Shown: in pieces, positions 53,550 through 63,140 of the stretch
How the letters are laid out: each line of letters begins with the position of its first letter
How positions within the stretch are numbered: position 1 is the stretch's first letter
Source of the DNA: Hyunsoonleella jejuensis
GTDB lineage: Bacteria > Bacteroidota > Bacteroidia > Flavobacteriales > Flavobacteriaceae
Direction: 5' to 3'
Length of the DNA: 64,000 bases
Assembly: GCF_900111025.1 (NCBI RefSeq)
Contig: NZ_FOFN01000001.1
Coordinates: forward strand, 558,001 to 622,000
Program-made: the position numbers and the translations under genes
Notes under the pieces: generated by a model
Told to the model about the DNA's origin: nothing
Database searches by the model: none
What the model saw: the letters and a program-made list of their open reading frames with translations, nothing else

Positions 53550-54650
53550 TTATTCTACAATTAGAGTAGCATCTAATTCTTTGGCTTCACCAGGTTCAAG
53601 CGTAACATCAATTTCTTGGGTTACGTAACCTGTGGCACTAAATGTAACTTTATAGTCTCCTGGAACAATATTTTCAATACTATATTCACCAGTTGCATCG
53701 GTATTTACACTAGTACTATTTGTATCATTAATTGCAACCGTTGCAATAACATCGGTAGCTAACCCAGAAACGCTTCCTACTAAAGAGGCTGGTTTTAAAC
53801 TCAGCGCAATAGTTTCATCAATAATTGTAACTTCACCTTTAGTTACAGTAACTCCTTCAACTACAGTATCTGCATAATCAGAATCATCATCAGTTGGCAT
53901 AATTACCACATCATAAGTTCCTGGAGGGACTCCCCACAATGCAAATTTACCTGTATCGTCGGTGTACGCCGAAATTACAAAGTCATCATCTGTTTCTGGA
54001 GTGCCCATGTCGTCTACTAATACTGAAGCCATAACAGGAACATCAGACGGACTAACCGTGCCTTCTATAATGCCAGAATTAACTTCTGCACTTACATACA
54101 AAACAGGTTTTAAAATAATATTTCCAGAATTTCCTGCAATTACAATGGATTTTTCAACATCAAAATCTAAAACAAAATCATAAACAAACCCTTCTTGAAT
54201 TTCGGTGTTTACTTTTAATTTTAATCCAGATTGTTGTCCGCTAGGTGTTTTTAAATCAAACGTTTCATCTTCATCGTTTTCATCTTTAATTACAATAGTA
54301 TTGCCATCTCCTAAAACCAATCGCATTTGGGTTAGTTTCCCTTCAGGAATTGGGAATCTATCTACTAGAACTTTACTAATACCTCCAGTAAAATCTAATA
54401 AATCCACAATACCGCTTTCGGCTTCTAAAGACATCCAACCGTTATCATCATCGCTGTTATCGTCCATCTTAATCATAACGTCAACTACTTCAACATTAAC
54501 TGCTTCAAAATCCCCAGGAGCATCAACGAGCCTTATGGAAATAGTTGGTGCTTCAGCATTGGTTTTTGTTGTATCGGAATCATCACACGACACCAGAAAC
54601 ATTAAAAAAACGAATGAAAATACTAACTTTAAATACTTTGACAATTTCAT
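53550..54650 (-). CDS. DUF4382 lipoprotein with carboxypeptidase-regulatory-like repeats
   Basis: The 366-aa protein has a lipobox (FLMFLVSCDDSD, Cys near residue 22), a DUF4382 domain with ISIRLVDAPGDFEAVNVEVVDVMIKMDD, and two carboxypeptidase-regulatory-like domains of beta-sandwich type (VLVDDMGTPETDDDFVISAYTDDTGKFALWGVPPGTYDVVI and SVSGLATDVIATVAINDTNSTSVNTDATGEYSIENIVPGDYKVTFSATGYV). Found in Bacteroidota surfaces, the binding partner is unknown. Confidence 0.88.
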   Translation of the reverse strand: MKLSKYLKLVFSFVFLMFLVSCDDSDTTKTNAEAPTISIRLVDAPGDFEAVNVEVVDVMIKMDDNSDDDNGWMSLEAESGIVDLLDFTGGISKVLVDRFPIPEGKLTQMRLVLGDGNTIVIKDENDEDETFDLKTPSGQQSGLKLKVNTEIQEGFVYDFVLDFDVEKSIVIAGNSGNIILKPVLYVSAEVNSGIIEGTVSPSDVPVMASVLVDDMGTPETDDDFVISAYTDDTGKFALWGVPPGTYDVVIMPTDDDSDYADTVVEGVTVTKGEVTIIDETIALSLKPASLVGSVSGLATDVIATVAINDTNSTSVNTDATGEYSIENIVPGDYKVTFSATGYVTQEIDVTLEPGEAKELDATLIVE

Positions 54651-54807
54651 AAATCTATTTTTTTCTTTAAAATTTACGACAAAATTAAAGTCTTAGACGT
54701 TTAAATGTTGTTCAAAACCGAAAAAACAGTAATGCAATCGATTAAAAATTCGATAAACGGTAAAAGTAAATGTCTTTTGAGTATTTTAGGGTCAATAAAT
54801 TATAAAA

Positions 54808-55566
54808 ATGAAGAGAACAGCATTTATAACAGGAGCCACAAGTGGTATTGGTGAAGCCACAGCCTATGAGTTTGCAAAACAAGGCATAAGACTTGTACTA
54901 TGCGGAAGGCGCTTACATAGACTTAATACTATTAGAGAAGCTTTAGGCAGGTTAACCGATGTCCACATTTTAAGTTTTGATGTAAGAGATAAACAAGCAA
55001 CTTTAGATGCCATTTCTTCTTTGCCCGAAGCATTTAGTAAGATTGATATATTAATCAATAATGCTGGGAATGCACACGGTTTAGATCCTATTCAAGATGG
55101 TAGTTTAGACGACTGGGATGCCATGATGGATATTAACGTAAAAGGCTTATTGTACGTAAGTAAAGCCATTATTCCACAAATGACGTCGCGTAAATCTGGA
55201 CACATCATTAATATTGGGTCTTCTGCGGGAAAAGAGGTATATCCTAAGGGTAATGTGTATTGTGGTAGTAAGCACGCCGTTTTAGCTATTACGGAGGGGA
55301 TGCGCGTAGATTTAAACCCATTTGGTATAAAAGTAGGCGCTATAAATCCTGGTTTGGTGGAAACCGAATTTTCTAAAGTACGTTTTAAAGGCGGTAAGGA
55401 AGCCGATGCTGTATATACCGGTTTTAAAGCGTTGCAAGCAAAGGATGTTGCCGAAGTGATTTATTTTGCAGTGTCTAGACCTGCTCATGTTAATATTGCC
55501 GATGTTTTGATGTTCTGCACAGCTCAGGCTAATAGTGTTACGGTTAAAAAGAGCCTTGACGATTAA
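54808..55566 (+). CDS. Short-chain dehydrogenase (YdfG-like)
   Basis: The 252-aa protein has the SDR motifs: TGATSGIGEATA (cofactor loop), ILINNAGNAHGLD (NNAG), INIGSSAGKEV and Tyr151-x-x-x-Lys155 in YCGSKHAV. It resembles serine/3-hydroxy acid dehydrogenase YdfG, but substrate specificity cannot be set by sight. It precedes an AlbA_2-type gene by 26 bp. Confidence 0.92.
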   Translation: MKRTAFITGATSGIGEATAYEFAKQGIRLVLCGRRLHRLNTIREALGRLTDVHILSFDVRDKQATLDAISSLPEAFSKIDILINNAGNAHGLDPIQDGSLDDWDAMMDINVKGLLYVSKAIIPQMTSRKSGHIINIGSSAGKEVYPKGNVYCGSKHAVLAITEGMRVDLNPFGIKVGAINPGLVETEFSKVRFKGGKEADAVYTGFKALQAKDVAEVIYFAVSRPAHVNIADVLMFCTAQANSVTVKKSLDD

Positions 55567-55592
55567 GTGATTCTGTCTATCAGAAAGTATCT

Positions 55593-56726
55593 ATGATTAA
55601 TAAACGCTTACTTATTAAACATCTTCTAGCTCATAATGATGAGAACAGTTTTTATGACAAAAAGCGAAAAATTGATATAAGTTTTAAAGAAGGAAAAGCT
55701 AAGTTTTTAAAACATATTTGTGCGCTTTCCAATAGCAATCCCAAAAACAATTCCTACATGGTTATTGGTGTTGAGGATGAGGACAACAAGATTATTGGTG
55801 TAGATTTTTTTGATGATAGTAAAATTCAAAATTTAATTAATGCCTATTTAAACAATCCGCCTATTGTTCAATATGAAAACATACCGTTTCCGCATTTACC
55901 AGACGATAAGGTTGTGGGTTTGGTAACCATAAGACCTATTGGGAAACTTACCGCGCTACGAAAGAATATCTGGAAATACTATGGTGGTTCTGTGTTTTTT
56001 AGAGATGGTAGTATGAGTATGCCCAAGGTGTTTAAAAGCGATATTAAAGACGTAAACTCTAAGATTGTTGAGGCCATAGAACGAAACGCTCAAAACAATA
56101 TTGAGCATACTTTGGATGGCGTAATAGACTTTATGAATACGCGTAAAGACTTTAATGCACAGTATAAAGTGTTTAAGGAATATTTTGTGGTGTGTTGGGC
56201 AGGACAAAAGAAAATCGTAAAAAACGAAGTGTTTTATTCTAGAGTAGATATTGAACTAATAAATGAGCAGGTGCGATTATTTTTTTCAGCTTTAGATGAA
56301 GTGTCCATTATCATTACAGAGGATACTTTTGAGATTATTGAATATGTGAATCTTGGTTACCAAAAGAACTTTAAATATTACCCTTTAGAAGAAACCACTA
56401 TTAGCTTTCAGGATAATGCCCAATATAACATAGATACCAAATTATTGTTTGAGCCGCCACAGTTCAATAAAAAAACATTGTATCATATTTATAATACTAA
56501 TAATGCACTTTTAGACAAATTAAAAAAGGGACTCACCTTAACTGAAAACGAAATTTTAGATCTTAAGCAATTGCCTTCTACATATTTGCTTTGTTATTTA
56601 AATGATTTTCAAGATGCTTTAACCAAACTTCAAGAAGCAAAAGACTATTTAAAAGCTCAAGGTAATGGTATTTACCTCCTATATAAAGAAACCATGCGCA
56701 TTTTAAGAAAGGTAAAGTACAATTAA
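55593..56726 (+). CDS. AlbA_2/Schlafen-type DNA-binding domain protein
   Basis: The 377-aa protein starts with FKEGKAKFLKHICALSNSNPKNNSYMVIGVEDEDNKIIGVDFFDDSKIQNLINAYLNNPPIVQYENI, the AlbA_2 domain shared with Schlafen proteins. Residues about 120-377 are not recognised and look mixed alpha/beta (VFFRDGSMSMPKVFKSDIKDVN, then VRLFFSALDEVSIIITEDTFEIIEYVNLGY). It lies 26 bp after the SDR gene, so probably co-transcribed. AlbA_2 proteins include putative transcription or defence factors. Confidence 0.8.
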   Translation: MINKRLLIKHLLAHNDENSFYDKKRKIDISFKEGKAKFLKHICALSNSNPKNNSYMVIGVEDEDNKIIGVDFFDDSKIQNLINAYLNNPPIVQYENIPFPHLPDDKVVGLVTIRPIGKLTALRKNIWKYYGGSVFFRDGSMSMPKVFKSDIKDVNSKIVEAIERNAQNNIEHTLDGVIDFMNTRKDFNAQYKVFKEYFVVCWAGQKKIVKNEVFYSRVDIELINEQVRLFFSALDEVSIIITEDTFEIIEYVNLGYQKNFKYYPLEETTISFQDNAQYNIDTKLLFEPPQFNKKTLYHIYNTNNALLDKLKKGLTLTENEILDLKQLPSTYLLCYLNDFQDALTKLQEAKDYLKAQGNGIYLLYKETMRILRKVKYN

Positions 56727-56788
56727 CATTTGTTTATAAATTTAACTATAATTTAATGTTGAGGTATTTTTATTTTACGAAAAAATAG

Positions 56789-56796
56789 TATGTTTG
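56789..56796 (+). promoter_or_regulatory. -7 box TATGTTTG, copy A
   Basis: Fits TAnnTTTG exactly and is followed by the GCACC start seen after many such boxes. The upstream DNA differs between copies A and B, and no -33 TTTG at normal spacing is present in either. Confidence 0.5.
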
Positions 56797-56798
56797 CA

Positions 56799-56860
56799 CC
56801 GCTATTAATCATTTTAACTAAACCTTGTGCTCCAAATCGAAACAGAGTCAAGGTTTTTTT
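56799..56860 (+). ncRNA. Candidate 60-nt small RNA, copy A
   Basis: Between the box and a hairpin terminator (arms 56820-56827 AAACCTTG and 56849-56856 CAAGGTTT, with CTC/GAG inside) followed by Ts. There is no coding potential. The sequence is identical in copy B at 58553-58614, unlike the flanking parts. The start is estimated from the box. Confidence 0.5.
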
Positions 56861-57093
56861 ATGTCCTAGTTTTTACTGGCATCCTCATTTTGTTGTGATA
56901 TTAAGAGCCTTTTTATTTGTTATCTAACTAGACTACCACGGGCGATACAGCTTGATTTTGTATAAATTTTCAACTACCTTCGTTTAATTGCGGATATTAA
57001 GCCATACCAATGACACATATGCGTGAACACGTTGGGCTTCATTTCCAAGCAACCGTAATCCGAACTTAAAAAGAAAAACAAAAAAATTAAAAA

Positions 57094-58461
57094 TTGAAAC
57101 TAAAAACGATTGGCGATATTTTATTTTGGGCTTATTCTAATCTTGCAATGGCTCACGTTGCTTACAAAGATAAATCTGAAAAATATACATCCAAACATTT
57201 TGGAATAAGAAATAGATTATATAGAGGCTTGAATAATGGAGAAATGAACATAAAATCATTTTTCGATGATGAACGCCTGAAAATGATTTTGCCTCAATCT
57301 TGTAATTATTGCGGTTCAAAAGAACATTTAGCTACCGACCATTTAATTCCACGAAAAAAGGGAGGTTTAGATATTGGAGAAAATTTAGTTTGGGCTTGTA
57401 GGTCTTGTAATAGTTCGAAATCAGATAGAGATTTAATCGATTGGATGAATAAAAACGGAAAAGAACCTTCTATTCTAATCTATCGAAGGTATCTGAAAAT
57501 TTTAATTACTTATTGTCGAGAAAATCAAATCATTAATGAAAACATAGAAAATATTGGAAAGTTAAATTTACCTTTCAATTTAACTTTAATCTCTGACAAG
57601 ATAATTCCAATTAGTTCACTAAAACTTTGGGTAACAGAAATTGAAGATAAAACTTATAGAATTGCAAATTGGAATGTTGAAAGACCAAAAATCGGAACAA
57701 AGAAAACTAAATTAGTTATTGAACAAATTAATAAAATAAATGCAGATATATTTATATTAACAGAGACAAGCAATGCTATAAATTTAAAACCATTTTATAA
57801 AGCTGTTAAATCAATTCCTTTTGACAGAAACCCAAATGAACAATGGGTTACAATTTGGTCAAAATGGGAAATTAAAAAAGAAATTGAAACATTTGACAAT
57901 AAACGAACAACCTGCGCATTAATAAAAGCACCTATTGGAGATTTAATAATTTACGGAACTATTATTCCTTATCATATGGCTGGAGTAAGTGGAAAGCGCT
58001 ATGAATTTTCGGGCTATAAAGCATGGGAACTACACGAAGAAGATATTATAAGACAAAGTAACGACTGGAAAAAGATTCAATCCGAAAATAATAATATTCC
58101 TTTCTTCGTAATTGGAGATTTTAACCAAACAAGAGATAATTTACCAAAAGGTTATGGAACAATAAGCGGAAGAGATTTATTAACAAAAAAACTTAAAGAA
58201 ACTGAATTAACCTGTTTAACTGGAATAGATTTTTCAAAAACAAAACAATTGAGCATTGACATTAAAAAAGGAAAAGTAAGGAGAAATATTGATCATATTT
58301 GTGTAAGTACTAATTGGTTAAACTCATTAGAAAATTACGAAATCGGAGCTTGGGATAATTTTGACAAAAATGGAAATTATATGTCTGACCATAATGGAGT
58401 TTATTTAGAATTTAAGAAAGAAAAAAAAGAAAGACTAACAAAGAACTTAGTTAAAAAATAA
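57094..58461 (+). CDS. HNH endonuclease - EEP nuclease fusion protein
   Basis: The 455-aa product has two nuclease domains. The HNH part has Cys70-x-x-Cys73, His83 in TDHLIP, Asn97 and Cys102-x-x-Cys105, the full zinc-HNH set. Residues about 188-450 form an endonuclease/exonuclease/phosphatase domain: Asn194 in NWNVE, Glu224 in ILTET, Asp342/Asn344 in IGDFNQ, Asp400-His401 in NIDHI and Asp432-His433 in SDHNG. All catalytic residues look intact in both. Such a double nuclease would fit DNA restriction or defence, but no partner is seen. The TTG start at 57094 is accepted because the following residues read as a helix; an internal ATG is at Met19. The AT-rich gene sits between two direct repeats. 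Confidence 0.85.
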   Translation: MKLKTIGDILFWAYSNLAMAHVAYKDKSEKYTSKHFGIRNRLYRGLNNGEMNIKSFFDDERLKMILPQSCNYCGSKEHLATDHLIPRKKGGLDIGENLVWACRSCNSSKSDRDLIDWMNKNGKEPSILIYRRYLKILITYCRENQIINENIENIGKLNLPFNLTLISDKIIPISSLKLWVTEIEDKTYRIANWNVERPKIGTKKTKLVIEQINKINADIFILTETSNAINLKPFYKAVKSIPFDRNPNEQWVTIWSKWEIKKEIETFDNKRTTCALIKAPIGDLIIYGTIIPYHMAGVSGKRYEFSGYKAWELHEEDIIRQSNDWKKIQSENNNIPFFVIGDFNQTRDNLPKGYGTISGRDLLTKKLKETELTCLTGIDFSKTKQLSIDIKKGKVRRNIDHICVSTNWLNSLENYEIGAWDNFDKNGNYMSDHNGVYLEFKKEKKERLTKNLVKK

Positions 58462-58542
58462 GCAATTTTAGGCTAATGTTGCAACGAAGTTCTCATTATA
58501 AGGTTTTCTTGATTTGGCAATAGTAAAGGCCTGTTTTAATAG

Positions 58543-58550
58543 TATGTTTG
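58543..58550 (+). promoter_or_regulatory. -7 box TATGTTTG, copy B
   Basis: Same box as in copy A, in different upstream DNA. Confidence 0.5.
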
Positions 58551-58552
58551 CA

Positions 58553-58614
58553 CCGCTATTAATCATTTTAACTAAACCTTGTGCTCCAAATCGAAACAGA
58601 GTCAAGGTTTTTTT
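58553..58614 (+). ncRNA. Candidate 60-nt small RNA, copy B
   Basis: Identical to copy A through the terminator (arms AAACCTTG at 58574-58581 and CAAGGTTT at 58603-58610, then Ts). Confidence 0.5.
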
Positions 58615-58851
58615 ATGTCCTAGGTTTTACTGATATCCTCATTTTGTTGTGATATTAAGAGCTTTTTTTTGTTATCTAACTAGACCACAACGGACGACAC
58701 AGCTTGATTTTGTATAAATTTTCGACTACCTTCGTTTAACGGCACATATGCGTGAATACATTGTGTCTCATTAACGAAATTAATCCCAGAAAATCGAGAT
58801 AAATTTTTCACCTTTTTTTTTAATTTGGAAAGCTAAAATAAAACCATAATA

Positions 58852-60318
58852 ATGAAAAGAATATTATTGTTATCATTCATCACCTTATTTTTCTTTGGGT
58901 GTAAGGATAATCAAAACAAACAGCAAAGTTCGGTTGAAATAACTGAACCCAAAGGAGTTGAAAATATTGCTTATAAGTGGGGGCAAATGGCGTTGACCGC
59001 AACAGCTAACGATACAGAAAAGTTTAAACCAAGACCAACAATAACCTCTAGATATTTAGGCTTAATTTTTGTTTCAATTTTTGACGCTTGGTCGCGATAT
59101 GACAAAAAAGCAATTCCTGTTTATTTAAATAATGTAGAAAGGACACCAGAAAAAGAGCATTCCTTAAGAAATAAGGAAATAGCCATAAGCTATGCAGCAT
59201 TTCGAACAATGAATGAATATTACTATTCTGATAAAAAACTATTTGAAGATTTTATGATACAATTGGGTTTAGACCCGCGCAATGATAGTCTTGACCCAAA
59301 CACACCAGAAGGAATTGGGAATTTAGCTGCTAAAGCAGTTATTGAAGCTAGAAAGGGAGACGGAGCAAATCAATATGGAGAAGAAGAAGGATCAAATGGC
59401 GAACCCTACTTTAATTACGTTGGCTACGAACCAATAAATTCAGCTGATAAAAACGTTGATGCAAATCGTTGGCAGCCAAAATATTTTTCGGATGGAAAAG
59501 GAGGAACATTTGCCCCAGGTTGTTTGACACCATTTTGGGACAAAGTAAAACCTATTGCCTTAAAATCAGGCGACCAATTTAGGCCTGGTCCTCCACCAAT
59601 GATTGGTTCTGAACAATTGGAGAAAGAAGTACAAGAAGTAATTGAAATGCAAGCCAATTTAACTGATTACCAAAAAGCTTTAGTTGAATTTATGCGTGAC
59701 GGTCCACAATCCGTGCAACAAGCAGGACATTGGTTGAAATTTGCACAAGATGTTTCAAGAAGAGATAATCATACCCTAGACCAAGATGTAAAAATGTACT
59801 TCTATAACCAAGTAGTGGCAATGGATGCTTTTATTGCGTCTTGGGATTCCAAGATGTTTTATGATTATGCTAGACCATATGCATTAGTTCACAAATACTA
59901 CGAGAACCAAAAAATAAAAGCTTGGGGAGGAGAAGGAAAAGGAATGATAGAAATGGACGGAAAACAATGGCGTCCTTATTCGCCAGAAACATTTTTGTGC
60001 CCCCCATTTCCAAGTTATGTTTCAGGGCATAGTACAATTAGTGGAGGATGTGCAGAAGCATTGAAAATGTGGACTGGAAGTGATGAATTTGGTTCTAGTG
60101 CCGAATTAGTTGCTGGTGCAATGACAGAACCAGATAATTTGGGAGAAAAAATAACCTTGGAATTTCCAACTTTTACAGAAACAGCAGAAATGGCTGGCAT
60201 CTCAAGAGTATTAGGTGGCTACCATATACAAGCTGACAATGTAGCTGGACTCGAATTAGGTCGGAACGTGGCAAAAGAGGTTTGGAAATTCTATAAAAAA
60301 CATATAGGAGAAAAATAG
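58852..60318 (+). CDS. Vanadium-dependent haloperoxidase / PAP2-type lipoprotein
   Basis: The 488-aa protein has a lipobox (TLFFFGCKDN, Cys near residue 17) and the vanadate/phosphate pocket of this superfamily in order: Lys334 and Arg341-Pro342 (SKMFYDYARP), Pro387-Ser388 ... Ser391-Gly392-His393 (PPFPSYVSGHST), and Arg452 ... His458 (ISRVLGGYH). These are the vanadium haloperoxidase signatures; a phosphatase of the same fold is the alternative. It is likely periplasmic or outer-membrane anchored. The 5' region carries repeat copy B, the 3' region a short hairpin at 60369. Confidence 0.88.
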   Translation: MKRILLLSFITLFFFGCKDNQNKQQSSVEITEPKGVENIAYKWGQMALTATANDTEKFKPRPTITSRYLGLIFVSIFDAWSRYDKKAIPVYLNNVERTPEKEHSLRNKEIAISYAAFRTMNEYYYSDKKLFEDFMIQLGLDPRNDSLDPNTPEGIGNLAAKAVIEARKGDGANQYGEEEGSNGEPYFNYVGYEPINSADKNVDANRWQPKYFSDGKGGTFAPGCLTPFWDKVKPIALKSGDQFRPGPPPMIGSEQLEKEVQEVIEMQANLTDYQKALVEFMRDGPQSVQQAGHWLKFAQDVSRRDNHTLDQDVKMYFYNQVVAMDAFIASWDSKMFYDYARPYALVHKYYENQKIKAWGGEGKGMIEMDGKQWRPYSPETFLCPPFPSYVSGHSTISGGCAEALKMWTGSDEFGSSAELVAGAMTEPDNLGEKITLEFPTFTETAEMAGISRVLGGYHIQADNVAGLELGRNVAKEVWKFYKKHIGEK

Positions 60319-60561: not shown

Positions 60562-61752
60562 TTAAATAAAATCTAACTGGCTAAACGATTTGTTCAGTAC
60601 TTTTTTATCGTCAACCTCAAGCCATTTATCCAACACTGTGGCATAAATAGTCCTAAAATCTATTTCGAATTTTAAGTCGCCATTATCATCTAAATTACTC
60701 AAGTTAGCCATGTCGTTGTAAAAGCCTTGCTTCTTGAGATTTTCACCAATTACGAATACATTGTTTGCGGTGCCATGGTCTGTACCCACGCTGGCATTTT
60801 GTTTTACGCGGCGCCCAAATTCAGAAAAAGTTAAGATTAAAGTATCCTTAAATGTGCCATTGTCTTTTAAATCTTTTACAAACGTTTCAATACCTTCGCT
60901 ATATTGCCCTAATAAGCGTTTTTGAGTATTTAGCTGATTTGCATGGGTATCAAAACCGTTTAAGGAGGTGTAAAACACTTTTGTGTCTAAGCCGGAGTTT
61001 ATAAACTGTGCCGTAGTTTTTAATTGTTTGCCAAATTTATTATTGGGATAGTCTTGAGAGGTCGACACGGTTTTACTGGTTTCGAAAATATACTTTGCCG
61101 AAGATTGTGCAGCAATCATAGACTTGTACAAATAGCCTAGGTTATGCTCGCTTAGATGCGCATCGTTTTGATGTCTATGAATATTTTTGAAATACGGGTC
61201 TTTGGATAAGTTCTGAAATGCTTTTGGGTCTTTTGTGGCTATAGCATTCACGTTTTCGCCTTTCATGGCCAACGATAAACTGTCGTCTACCTCAATCGCA
61301 GAATGGGGATGCTTACCGTAGTTATCTAAATATCTACCTAACCATCCACTCTGTGAGAATGTATCAGCATCTGATGCAGTTTGCCAAATATCCATAGACC
61401 TAAAATGCGACCGTACCGGATTTGGATAGCCCACATTATTTATAATAGACAAATAACCTTGATCGTAAAGCCGCTTTAACGGTGTTAAACTTGGATTTAA
61501 GCCAACCTCGTCGGTTAATTTTATTACATCAAATTTAGAAATGCTCAAACTTGGGCGCTCCTTATAATAAATATCGTTGTTAAAAGGGACTATGGTGTTT
61601 AACCCGTCATTACCCCCTGAAAGCTGAATAATTACCAAGCGTTTATATCCTAATGTACTGCTAGCTACTTGTTCGAACGCTCTCACAAAACTGGGTACAA
61701 AAAAGAGGCTACTTGCTAATGATGACTGTTTTAAAAATTTTCTCCTATCCAT
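60562..61752 (-). CDS. DUF1501 family protein
   Basis: The 396-aa protein (ATG 61752) begins MDRRKFLKQSSLASSLFFVPSF, a twin-arginine signal, and contains LVIIQLSGGNDGLNTIVPF, VRSHFRSMDIWQTASD, LNGFDTHANQLNTQKRLL and TFSEFGRRVKQNASVGTDHGTANNVFVIG, the metal-binding motifs of DUF1501 (sulfatase-like fold). It is exported by Tat. It is paired with a DUF1800 gene, as in most genomes; their exact activity is unknown. The frame is open to 61797 but would put the RR motif too far in. Confidence 0.93.
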   Translation of the reverse strand: MDRRKFLKQSSLASSLFFVPSFVRAFEQVASSTLGYKRLVIIQLSGGNDGLNTIVPFNNDIYYKERPSLSISKFDVIKLTDEVGLNPSLTPLKRLYDQGYLSIINNVGYPNPVRSHFRSMDIWQTASDADTFSQSGWLGRYLDNYGKHPHSAIEVDDSLSLAMKGENVNAIATKDPKAFQNLSKDPYFKNIHRHQNDAHLSEHNLGYLYKSMIAAQSSAKYIFETSKTVSTSQDYPNNKFGKQLKTTAQFINSGLDTKVFYTSLNGFDTHANQLNTQKRLLGQYSEGIETFVKDLKDNGTFKDTLILTFSEFGRRVKQNASVGTDHGTANNVFVIGENLKKQGFYNDMANLSNLDDNGDLKFEIDFRTIYATVLDKWLEVDDKKVLNKSFSQLDFI

Positions 61753-61754
61753 AA

Positions 61755-63140
61755 CTAACACATTTGATATTCTGGCAAAGACATTAACTGTATGCAATAT
61801 TCTTGTTTGGAATTTTTCTGTAAAGTGTCAAGATAGTTTTTAGTATCTGTGTTAATATCACACGCCAAAATATATTCCTGCAAACTGTTCAATTTTACAT
61901 TTTTATAGGTTTTATTAAAGTCATCCCAATTTACATCCGTTTTTATCCATCTGCCATATGTTTTATTGAATTTTGCGTTCATTTCTTCAGATAAAACGCT
62001 ACCATGGCCTTCCTTAACTTTTGAAATATAACCACTATTAAGTAACATGGAAGGTAATTTTAAACGTAACACTATGGTATTGCTATCAATCCAATTTCTG
62101 CCACCTTTCCACCCAGCTACATTGGGAGGGTCTAGTAATGTTTGACCTAACAACCTTTGAATGTATATAAGTTGTTTCCGGTTTTTAAATTCTGTTGGCA
62201 CCACCGTTTTTATACCCACTAAAAATTCTATGGGGGACTTTATTTTATTACCTATATGTTGTGCATCATAAAACCAATCTGCTAATAGCATATGGCGCAT
62301 TACGGTTTCAATATTATAGTCTTTGTAAAACACATCGGCCAGTTCATTTACGTGGTTTTTGTTTATGGTTTCACTCACAAAATATTTATATAACTTTCCA
62401 CAAATATATGTGGCACATTGCTTCTTATTCAGAATAATATCCACAATATCTTCTCCTGAAAAATTGCCGGTTTTCCCAAAAAAGGTCTTGTCTTCAAAAT
62501 CGTGCGCCCATTTTCTAAACACAAATTCACCTTTTATATTATGGGAATATCCTGTAAATGCACGCGCACTTTCCTTAATATCTTGCTCGGTATACTGTCC
62601 TTCACCCAATGTGAATAGTTCCATGAGTTCGCGTGCAAAATTCTCATTGGGTTTGTGTTTTCTGTTTTGTTTGGTGTTGAGGTATTTGGTCATTGCCGCT
62701 TCTTTTGAAATGGCATTTACAAAATCCCTAAAATTCCCAAGAGCGTATTTGCGTAAGGTGTTATTGAAGTTCTGTATGTAAACAATATTGTTATCCTCAC
62801 AAACAAAGTGGTTCGCCCAAAAAAGCGTCATTTTTTCCCGTAGAACCTCTTTGGAAGTAGATAACCTTTCAATCCAAGCAGCATTCAGTTCCATTTGTTT
62901 CTGGCGACTCATTTTTTGGATTTCCATACGGGTTTTTGGGTCTAATTTCTCGCTCATCATTCCAGAGAAAACGGCTTTAATTTCAGAAGTGTCAACCTCT
63001 AATGCTGTATGTGAAGAAGAACTCTTAAAAAGGCCACTTACAATGTGTTTTTTATTCTTTTTAGATAGCTTTTCTAATTCTGAAGGTGAAATTCCAAAAC
63101 CAACGCGCCAGTATAAATGCTGTATGTGTTTCTTCTTCAT
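61755..63140 (-). CDS. DUF1800 family protein
   Basis: The 461-aa protein starts with a helix HIQHLYWRVGFGISPSELEKLSK and contains KMTLFWANHFVCEDN, RELMELFTLGEGQYTEQDIKESARAFTGY and NVAGWKGGRNWIDSNT, hallmarks of DUF1800. No signal peptide is evident. It is the upstream partner of DUF1501, 2 bp away from its start. Confidence 0.93.
   Translation of the reverse strand: MKKKHIQHLYWRVGFGISPSELEKLSKKNKKHIVSGLFKSSSSHTALEVDTSEIKAVFSGMMSEKLDPKTRMEIQKMSRQKQMELNAAWIERLSTSKEVLREKMTLFWANHFVCEDNNIVYIQNFNNTLRKYALGNFRDFVNAISKEAAMTKYLNTKQNRKHKPNENFARELMELFTLGEGQYTEQDIKESARAFTGYSHNIKGEFVFRKWAHDFEDKTFFGKTGNFSGEDIVDIILNKKQCATYICGKLYKYFVSETINKNHVNELADVFYKDYNIETVMRHMLLADWFYDAQHIGNKIKSPIEFLVGIKTVVPTEFKNRKQLIYIQRLLGQTLLDPPNVAGWKGGRNWIDSNTIVLRLKLPSMLLNSGYISKVKEGHGSVLSEEMNAKFNKTYGRWIKTDVNWDDFNKTYKNVKLNSLQEYILACDINTDTKNYLDTLQKNSKQEYCIQLMSLPEYQMC

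Follow-up and report, generated by a model that had tools for sequence, protein, structure and literature searches.

The 64,000-nt stretch of the Hyunsoonleella jejuensis genome analysed here (the window) contains two copies of an 86-bp block that, judged from its sequence, is very probably an old and conserved small-RNA gene, kept by many marine flavobacteria beside a gene for an SLFN_AlbA_2/DUF5929 protein (SLFN). This gene is probably transcribed. The best joint explanation of the locus, which we regard as likely, is that the SLFN-linked small RNA and a dispersed promoter-plus-leader element were duplicated as one unit, with a fused nuclease coming to lie between the copies in a landing site for passenger genes. 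The conservation, synteny and covariation of the RNA, the fusion in the nuclease and the remnant of a mobile element are observed. The RNA family, its SLFN partner and the 5′ head that it shares with other transcripts are of main interest; the nuclease matters less, since the fusion was seen once and the landing site is recurrent. Few marine-flavobacterial small RNAs have a deep comparative signature, and a short RNA with ten almost constant 5′ bases in dozens of genera, encoded beside a Schlafen-domain gene, would be a directly testable regulator.

Table 1. Features of the locus, with coordinates in the window
Feature	Position	Strand	Remarks
SLFN_AlbA_2/DUF5929 gene, constant neighbour of the small RNA	55593..56726	+	Pfam
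86-bp identical block, copy A	56784..56869	+	box TATGTTTG 56789-56796; decamer GCTATTAATC 56801-56810; terminator 56820-56860; taken as the ancestral position
Dispersed promoter with decayed leader hairpin, copy A	56952..57045	+	TTGATTTTG 56952; TACCTTCG 56975-56982; heads the nuclease
HNH-EEP nuclease, 455 aa	57094..58461	+	HNH half about aa 2-180; EEP half about aa 185-444
End of a mobile element, probably IS110-type	58436..58548	-	reverse frame matches the last ~26 residues of a transposase
86-bp identical block, copy B	58538..58623	+	box 58543-58550; decamer 58555-58564; terminator to 58614
Dispersed promoter with leader lacking one hairpin arm, copy B	58704..58772	+	TTGATTTTG 58704; TACCTTCG 58727-58734; heads the 58852-60318 gene
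Second passenger, DUF6851/VCPO/PAP2-type protein	58852..60318	+	Pfam: DUF6851, VCPO second domain, PAP2
Convergent gene, presumably DUF1501, far side of the landing site	60562..61797	-	orthologues by tblastn

Composition of the repeat pair

Alignment of both copies confirmed the original prediction that two direct repeats bracket the nuclease ORF. Positions 56784-56914 and 58538-58668 are 97% identical, positions 56911-56997 and 58663-58749 are 89% identical, and an extra piece of 35 nt, ending at 57043 and 58772, is 80% identical. A global alignment places a gap of 23 nt within the leader part. The longest identical run is exactly 86 nt, at the start of the repeats, and the remainder has diverged as had been proposed: none of the 11 differing columns among 201 aligned ones falls in the first 86, and all are found in the next 115. 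If differences were placed evenly, a clean first 86 columns would have a chance of 0.0017, calculated for a boundary that was set after seeing the data.

The box and the intrinsic terminator attributed to the block were located in the two copies. The terminator stem of copy A is formed by 56820-56827 with 56849-56856, followed by a T-run to 56860. When the 76-nt strand was folded as a single sequence, the z-score was -1.37, and 16 of 200 shuffles were equally good, so that the fold is only slightly better than that of shuffles and not significantly so. Each repeat appears to be a composite of an inherited small-RNA gene and a dispersed promoter-plus-leader element.

A probable small-RNA family beside SLFN

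A BLAST search with positions 56770-56995 against 99 relatives, scoring at most 8 candidates per genome, gave matches in 17 genomes, and these were of two kinds. The first kind is the 86-bp block, which occurs once per genome outside the window's own genome, in 9 of the 11 same-genus genomes (G004 and G006 gave no match) and in a few other genera. The second kind is a stretch of 36-45 bp near the repeat end, with several matches per genome. The SLFN gene is present in 13 of the 15 loci with a block-side match, directly adjoining in 12 and about 1.2 kb away in L013. Locus L015 has short flanks that show DUF1501 and DUF1800 alone; in L105, a longer version of the same locus, SLFN lies 1.9 kb upstream. 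The match in L017 is promoter-like only.

A covariance model was built from 15 rows, the window and 14 relatives, at places found by BLAST of the repeat. It was used to search 199 family genomes at E≤0.01 with strict filters, scoring 23 candidates per genome. The small RNA was found in 57 genomes from 56 genera and not in the other 142; a separate protein search detected SLFN in 164 of the 199. In 55 of the 57 RNA-bearing genomes, a copy follows the 3′ end of SLFN at up to 5 kb and in the same orientation, the exceptions being G118 and G246, where the RNA is away from SLFN. The distance from the SLFN stop is 43-201 bp in 50 of the 55 linked genomes and 874-1868 bp in the other five. Nine of the 55 have a further model match elsewhere. 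The small RNA is thus far from being confined to this locus.

Of the 55 linked genomes, 50 have one copy of the RNA beside SLFN and five have two, the window's own genome among the latter. The other four (G147, G056, G180 and G197) carry tandem copies whose starts are 180-215 bp apart, which leaves no space for a 100-aa gene, and the own genome is the only one with a gene between the two copies. By eye, the stems of the tandem copies are changed with compensation. Loci L136, L137, L138 and L139 show tandem pairs, as does L116 at 702 and 931 after SLFN; over these loci the copies are 180-229 bp apart.

Twenty SLFN 3′ flanks were taken from genomes without a model match. The exact decamer is present in three of them (L335, L339 and L343) and a diverged one, judged by eye, in about three more (L332, L334 and L342); the remaining 14 have neither. 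Together with the 142 genomes that lack a model match, this indicates that the RNA is widespread and not universal.

Rfam gave no match in the repeats; two matches within 54000-60000 lie outside them, with E values of 3.4 and 4.9. No published description of the small RNA was found among the literature matches listed, a comparison that extends to PMC9723704 without its Rfp1-89 list. Rfp18 of Flavobacterium psychrophilum, an intergenic small RNA of Bacteroidota, is described in that source (PMC9723704). Small RNAs of the Rfp18 type resemble the RNA studied here in being short, independent intergenic transcripts (a prediction in our case), in their TAnnTTTG promoter type and in their conservation across species. 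In contrast, the RNA of the window consists of one near-invariant 5′ decamer and one terminator hairpin, is linked to SLFN and has no Rfam match, as far as can be compared with PMC9723704 apart from its Rfp1-89 list.

Signs of selection on the RNA

In the seed alignment, the decamer GCTATTAATC is invariant in 15 of 15 rows, and a box of the TAnnTTTG type, matched as a consensus, stands at a fixed distance from it. The stem AACCTTG/CAAGGTT is nearly invariant in the same rows, and the linker and the loop are variable. The decamer is also unchanged in 49 of 50 strong model rows, the exception being L151; in this set L133 and L140 are one place, several rows are the model's own, and the model favours the decamer. 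Seven of the eight terminator stem pairs show changes on both sides that keep the pairing. There are 27 such both-side-changed cells, against 2.8 in shuffles, none of 500 shuffles scored as high, and slid partners lose the signal; the count comes from an alignment that had been fitted to the model and in which 10 rows are weak. A pattern of box plus decamer gave 56 matches in 48 of 299 family genomes, and the reversed pattern used as a control gave none. In the window's own genome, only its two copies match.

These features bear on whether the block could be no more than an SLFN terminator, in which case the promoter-like box would be a coincidence and no separate RNA would be made. Among the 55 linked genomes, 50 do have the block close behind the SLFN stop, it is placed between convergent genes in 36 loci, and its fold has a z-score of only -1.37. 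A mere SLFN terminator would, however, not be expected to have a box and a decamer that are better conserved than its own loop, as in the seed alignment, nor to be retained in four of 11 filled loci where other DNA separates it from SLFN. It is kept at 874-1868 bp from SLFN in five of 55 genomes, SLFN-less model matches occur at extra places in nine of 55 as well as in G118 and G246, and the tandem copies have compensated stems by eye. We therefore think it improbable that the block serves SLFN as a terminator and nothing else. The earlier suggestion that the RNA, and not just the DNA, is under selection gains support from the near-invariant 10-mer, the covarying terminator and the unit that is kept when moved from SLFN.

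If the block is a small-RNA gene, transcription would begin at GCTATTAATC or just ahead of it and end at the hairpin. The product would be an RNA of about 60 nt with an unpaired, near-invariant 5′ decamer followed by the terminator. The decamer would be the working part: within the RNA it could serve as a seed for pairing or as a tag for protein binding, and in the DNA it could be the operator that a regulator binds at the start site.

One conceivable target of such a seed is the neighbour itself. In the window, the decamer has 10 nt of complementarity to the start-codon region of the adjacent SLFN gene (AUGAUUAAUA), and the RNA could act as an antisense regulator. When 14 loci were read, however, the SLFN start was unlike that of the window (ATGATTAACA or ATGATCAACA) in 10, and the decamer did not follow. 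Because the start varies while the decamer stays constant, antisense pairing at the SLFN start codon was rejected and is, in our judgement, very improbable.

A head shared with other transcripts

When named genomes were scanned for the box followed by the decamer, at least 119 loci were returned. Sorting by script assigned 39 to the SLFN-adjacent class and one more to SLFN at 1.2 kb. In 50 loci, the start codon of a short MKKLLLS-type ORF lies within 60 bases of the head. Another 21 have a T-run and no SLFN in the locus, and the last eight, some from outside the phylum, probably include chance matches. Since the search pattern fixes the positions concerned, nothing about invariance is concluded from this set.

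Most of the short ORFs, at 50 loci or more, code for peptides of 41-51 aa whose start resembles a signal peptide; a few exceed this length or are interrupted by the end of the locus. Among the 21 T-run loci, four (L187, L231, L237 and L290) have DUF1501 downstream and are SLFN-linked copies truncated by the locus border, and L244 has the same appearance by sequence. Nine others (L188, L194, L213, L216, L240, L241, L258, L273 and L278) form a second RNA family. This second terminator-ended RNA reads about ACATTAGTTAGGCTT...AACTAATGTTTTTT and has the same decamer head with no SLFN in the locus. The peptide gene, of about 45-50 aa and MKKLLLSVAALMFATLLFSQ...-type, is seen for example in L184, L190 and L200, where its leader opens with the same box and decamer, again with no SLFN.

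The same 5′ motif thus heads a gene for a peptide of about 45 aa and a second RNA in relatives, so that the decamer may act as a seed in the RNA or as an operator at the start site. Coding and noncoding transcripts cannot pair with each other via the head, because both share the sense sequence. The simplest idea is that they share a binder, acting either on the head of the RNA or on the DNA at the start site, and the shared head provides a list of candidate co-regulated genes.

The binder would act on DNA if a regulator sat across the start sites of several promoters, in which case the terminated transcript may have no target. We hold this operator reading to be a real possibility, a little short of probable. 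It accommodates the head before a short coding gene in 50 of the at least 119 loci as well as before terminator-ended transcripts, and it does not need transcripts of common sense sequence to pair mutually. On the other hand, the decamer is hardly palindromic by eye, a covarying terminator would be superfluous for a bare operator, and the headed motif is restricted to the two copies in the own genome. As candidate base-pairing targets of the RNA, that genome contains 13 further GATTAATAGCR sites, compared with 4 for the control, counted as pattern matches.

A bolder proposal is that of an undescribed marine-flavobacterial regulon, in which the decamer GCUAUUAAUC on small RNAs and on the mRNA of a tiny exported peptide would be read as RNA and bound or cut by SLFN_AlbA_2. 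We consider this unlikely as a whole. It would be an RNA-tag system in which the RNA gene and the gene for the neighbouring Schlafen-type protein stay together in over fifty genera. A Foldseek search with the SLFN model, which is confident only at about residues 173-377, gave nothing at E≤0.001.

The promoter-plus-leader element

The dispersed part of the repeat is a stretch of about TTGAYTTTGTAAAAATTTTCAACTACCTTCGTTTAACGGCGGATATAAGCC...GGCGCATATCCG, with a promoter of the -33/-7 type followed by a hairpin. The hairpin has a variable loop and occurs in many of the 25 copies compared but is missing from some. Thirteen of 14 copies examined in the own genome have the start of a same-strand ORF 83-359 nt downstream, and the element would drive whichever gene comes next. 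It adjoins the same conserved gene in two species at three places. Different genes are headed at two of these; at the third, no ORF is present within 500 nt in the own genome. The two-species pairs are L042 and L026, L044 and L028, and L047 and L025, with neighbours that by eye are dnaX-, ffh- and metC-like. Both hairpins of the window look decayed, and the gene headed by copy B is haloperoxidase-like.

The arrangement resembles integron gene cassettes in that a promoter is followed by an imperfect hairpin and in that single variable genes stand behind conserved sites. It differs from them in the integrase: none of 12 genomes of the window's genus has an integron integrase over the TIGR02249 cut-off, and on this ground a cassette array was rejected. 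The two-species pairs suggest a dispersed landing site for single genes, without an integron integrase.

A landing site between SLFN and DUF1501

We examined 200 loci, and 36 distinct ones have SLFN with a convergent gene downstream that we take to be DUF1501. Most of these loci were brought in by the RNA itself, so that their count is no measure of RNA absence. Several loci without the SLFN-DUF1501 pair have other genes next (e.g. L092, L094, L096 and L101). Between the two genes, 25 of the 36 loci have no ORF of 100 aa or more, and 11, the window included, hold passengers. In 22 of the 25 empty loci, the two stop codons are 131-232 bp apart with the RNA inside. Passengers occupy the gap between the RNA and DUF1501 in seven of the 11 loci, the gap between SLFN and the RNA in three, and both sides in L100. 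By this comparison, the stretch from SLFN to DUF1501 is a recurrent landing site for passenger genes. The passenger of locus L196, an 827-aa protein encoded 278 to 2761 bases past the decamer, has a start that looks restriction-type by eye.

The original prediction went further and suggested the repeats as a possible means of acquiring the gene, which would make the 86-bp block a mobile or recombinogenic border that recurs beside cargo genes. The block does flank a passenger here, and passengers adjoin it in 11 of the 36 loci. When relatives were searched for the block, however, it was present without a passenger in 25 of the 36 loci, passengers occurred on either side of it, and it was single beside SLFN in 50 of 55 genomes. 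In addition, it is the promoter-leader, downstream of the block, and not the block itself that is dispersed in the genome. A role of the block as a border is therefore quite unlikely, and this part of the prediction did not hold.

The nuclease as a fused passenger

The nuclease probably starts at TTG 57094, since its alignment to stand-alone HNH relatives begins at residue 1-3. Domain searches placed both domains over their Pfam cut-offs, HNH at 1.5e-11 (aa 70-112) and Exo_endo_phos more narrowly at 4.9e-6 (aa 192-409; 26.9 against 24.5 bits). By eye against stand-alone relatives, the catalytic motifs are intact, in agreement with the earlier description. Each half is similar to one family of stand-alone Bacteroidia proteins, the HNH half being 41-48% identical to HNH proteins of 187-193 aa and the EEP half 55-56% identical to a 260-aa EEP (Exo_endo_phos) protein, whereas the protein of the window joins both in one chain. 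Protein searches found matches in 59 of 395 class genomes, with at most 4 candidates scored per genome, and, among 99 relatives, in 4; none but the nuclease itself spans both halves. The protein is therefore a fusion, seen once, in which about ten residues link the halves. In L367 (1429-3023), a stand-alone HNH gene directly adjoins a gene that is EEP-like by eye, a possible forerunner of the fusion.

The nuclease gene has the appearance of an acquired passenger, as had been suggested, and a role in phage defence is no more than a possibility. Similarity in PADLOC is limited to the HNH part (PDC-M01B, 2.5e-6; PtuB, 1.1e-5), and Pfam found no ATPase domain in the three neighbours scanned. Septu (PtuAB) was rejected on account of this HNH-only similarity and the lack of a PtuA-type ATPase among those neighbours. 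A tblastn search with the nuclease matched 119 phage and 21 plasmid records; as no matched record extended over 80% of the query, a phage or plasmid origin was also rejected. Whole-protein scans of genome contigs and viral contigs, which are sensitive to close relatives only, gave no nuclease match, and neither did blastn of the whole locus against plasmids give a match. A sequence search of the PDB returned matches to the HNH region only, and a single-sequence structure model of the HNH-EEP protein had a mean pLDDT of 35.

A mobile-element end and the order of events

The repeats had been described as enclosing a single gene only. The nuclease does lie between the copies, but the stretch before the second copy is the end of a mobile element and not plain spacer. 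Over 117 bp, it is 78% identical to the end of a same-genus element, and this match spans the last 8 codons of the nuclease, the stop and the spacer to copy B. The right end of the element thus supplies the last 8 codons and the stop codon, and the EEP domain is complete before the element begins. Genome G009 has three copies of the element end that are common from AACAAAGAAC inwards and have different flanks, which indicates that the element is mobile.

The element is probably of the IS110 type, on weak scores. The NCBIfam IS110 model scores 0.028 on the piece from the relative, at the correct C-terminal place and far below the cut-off. A tblastn search with the 26 residues returned six plasmid records (E 0.5-6), four annotated as IS110 and two unannotated, and Pfam gave no match for the transposase remnant. 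Likeness to IS110-family transposases consists of weak similarity in the last residues and of a right end followed by different flanks in the relative. Unlike a member of that family, the window retains only about 26 residues of the protein; a complete IS110 element with a guide RNA is absent, an end of about 113 bp being all that is left, and the small RNA occurs in dozens of genomes with no element seen beside it.

The history that we favour would begin with a duplication of the unit of RNA and promoter, after which the nuclease came to sit between the copies. A mobile element would have entered the 3′ end of the nuclease and later been lost except for its end. A duplication-first order is attractive because four genomes have tandem RNA pairs with similar spacing. 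Alternatively, a circle with both the unit and the nuclease could have entered by single crossover, which would explain the map equally well. As no intermediate state was found, the comparison does not tell duplication-first from insertion-first. The element end at the join may have been a cause or a bystander. The element end (window 58536-58565; also in L352 and L358) reads TTTGCCACTGCTA(TTA), close to the small-RNA start TTTGCACCGCTATTAA, a likeness that may reflect microhomology used in the join or chance.
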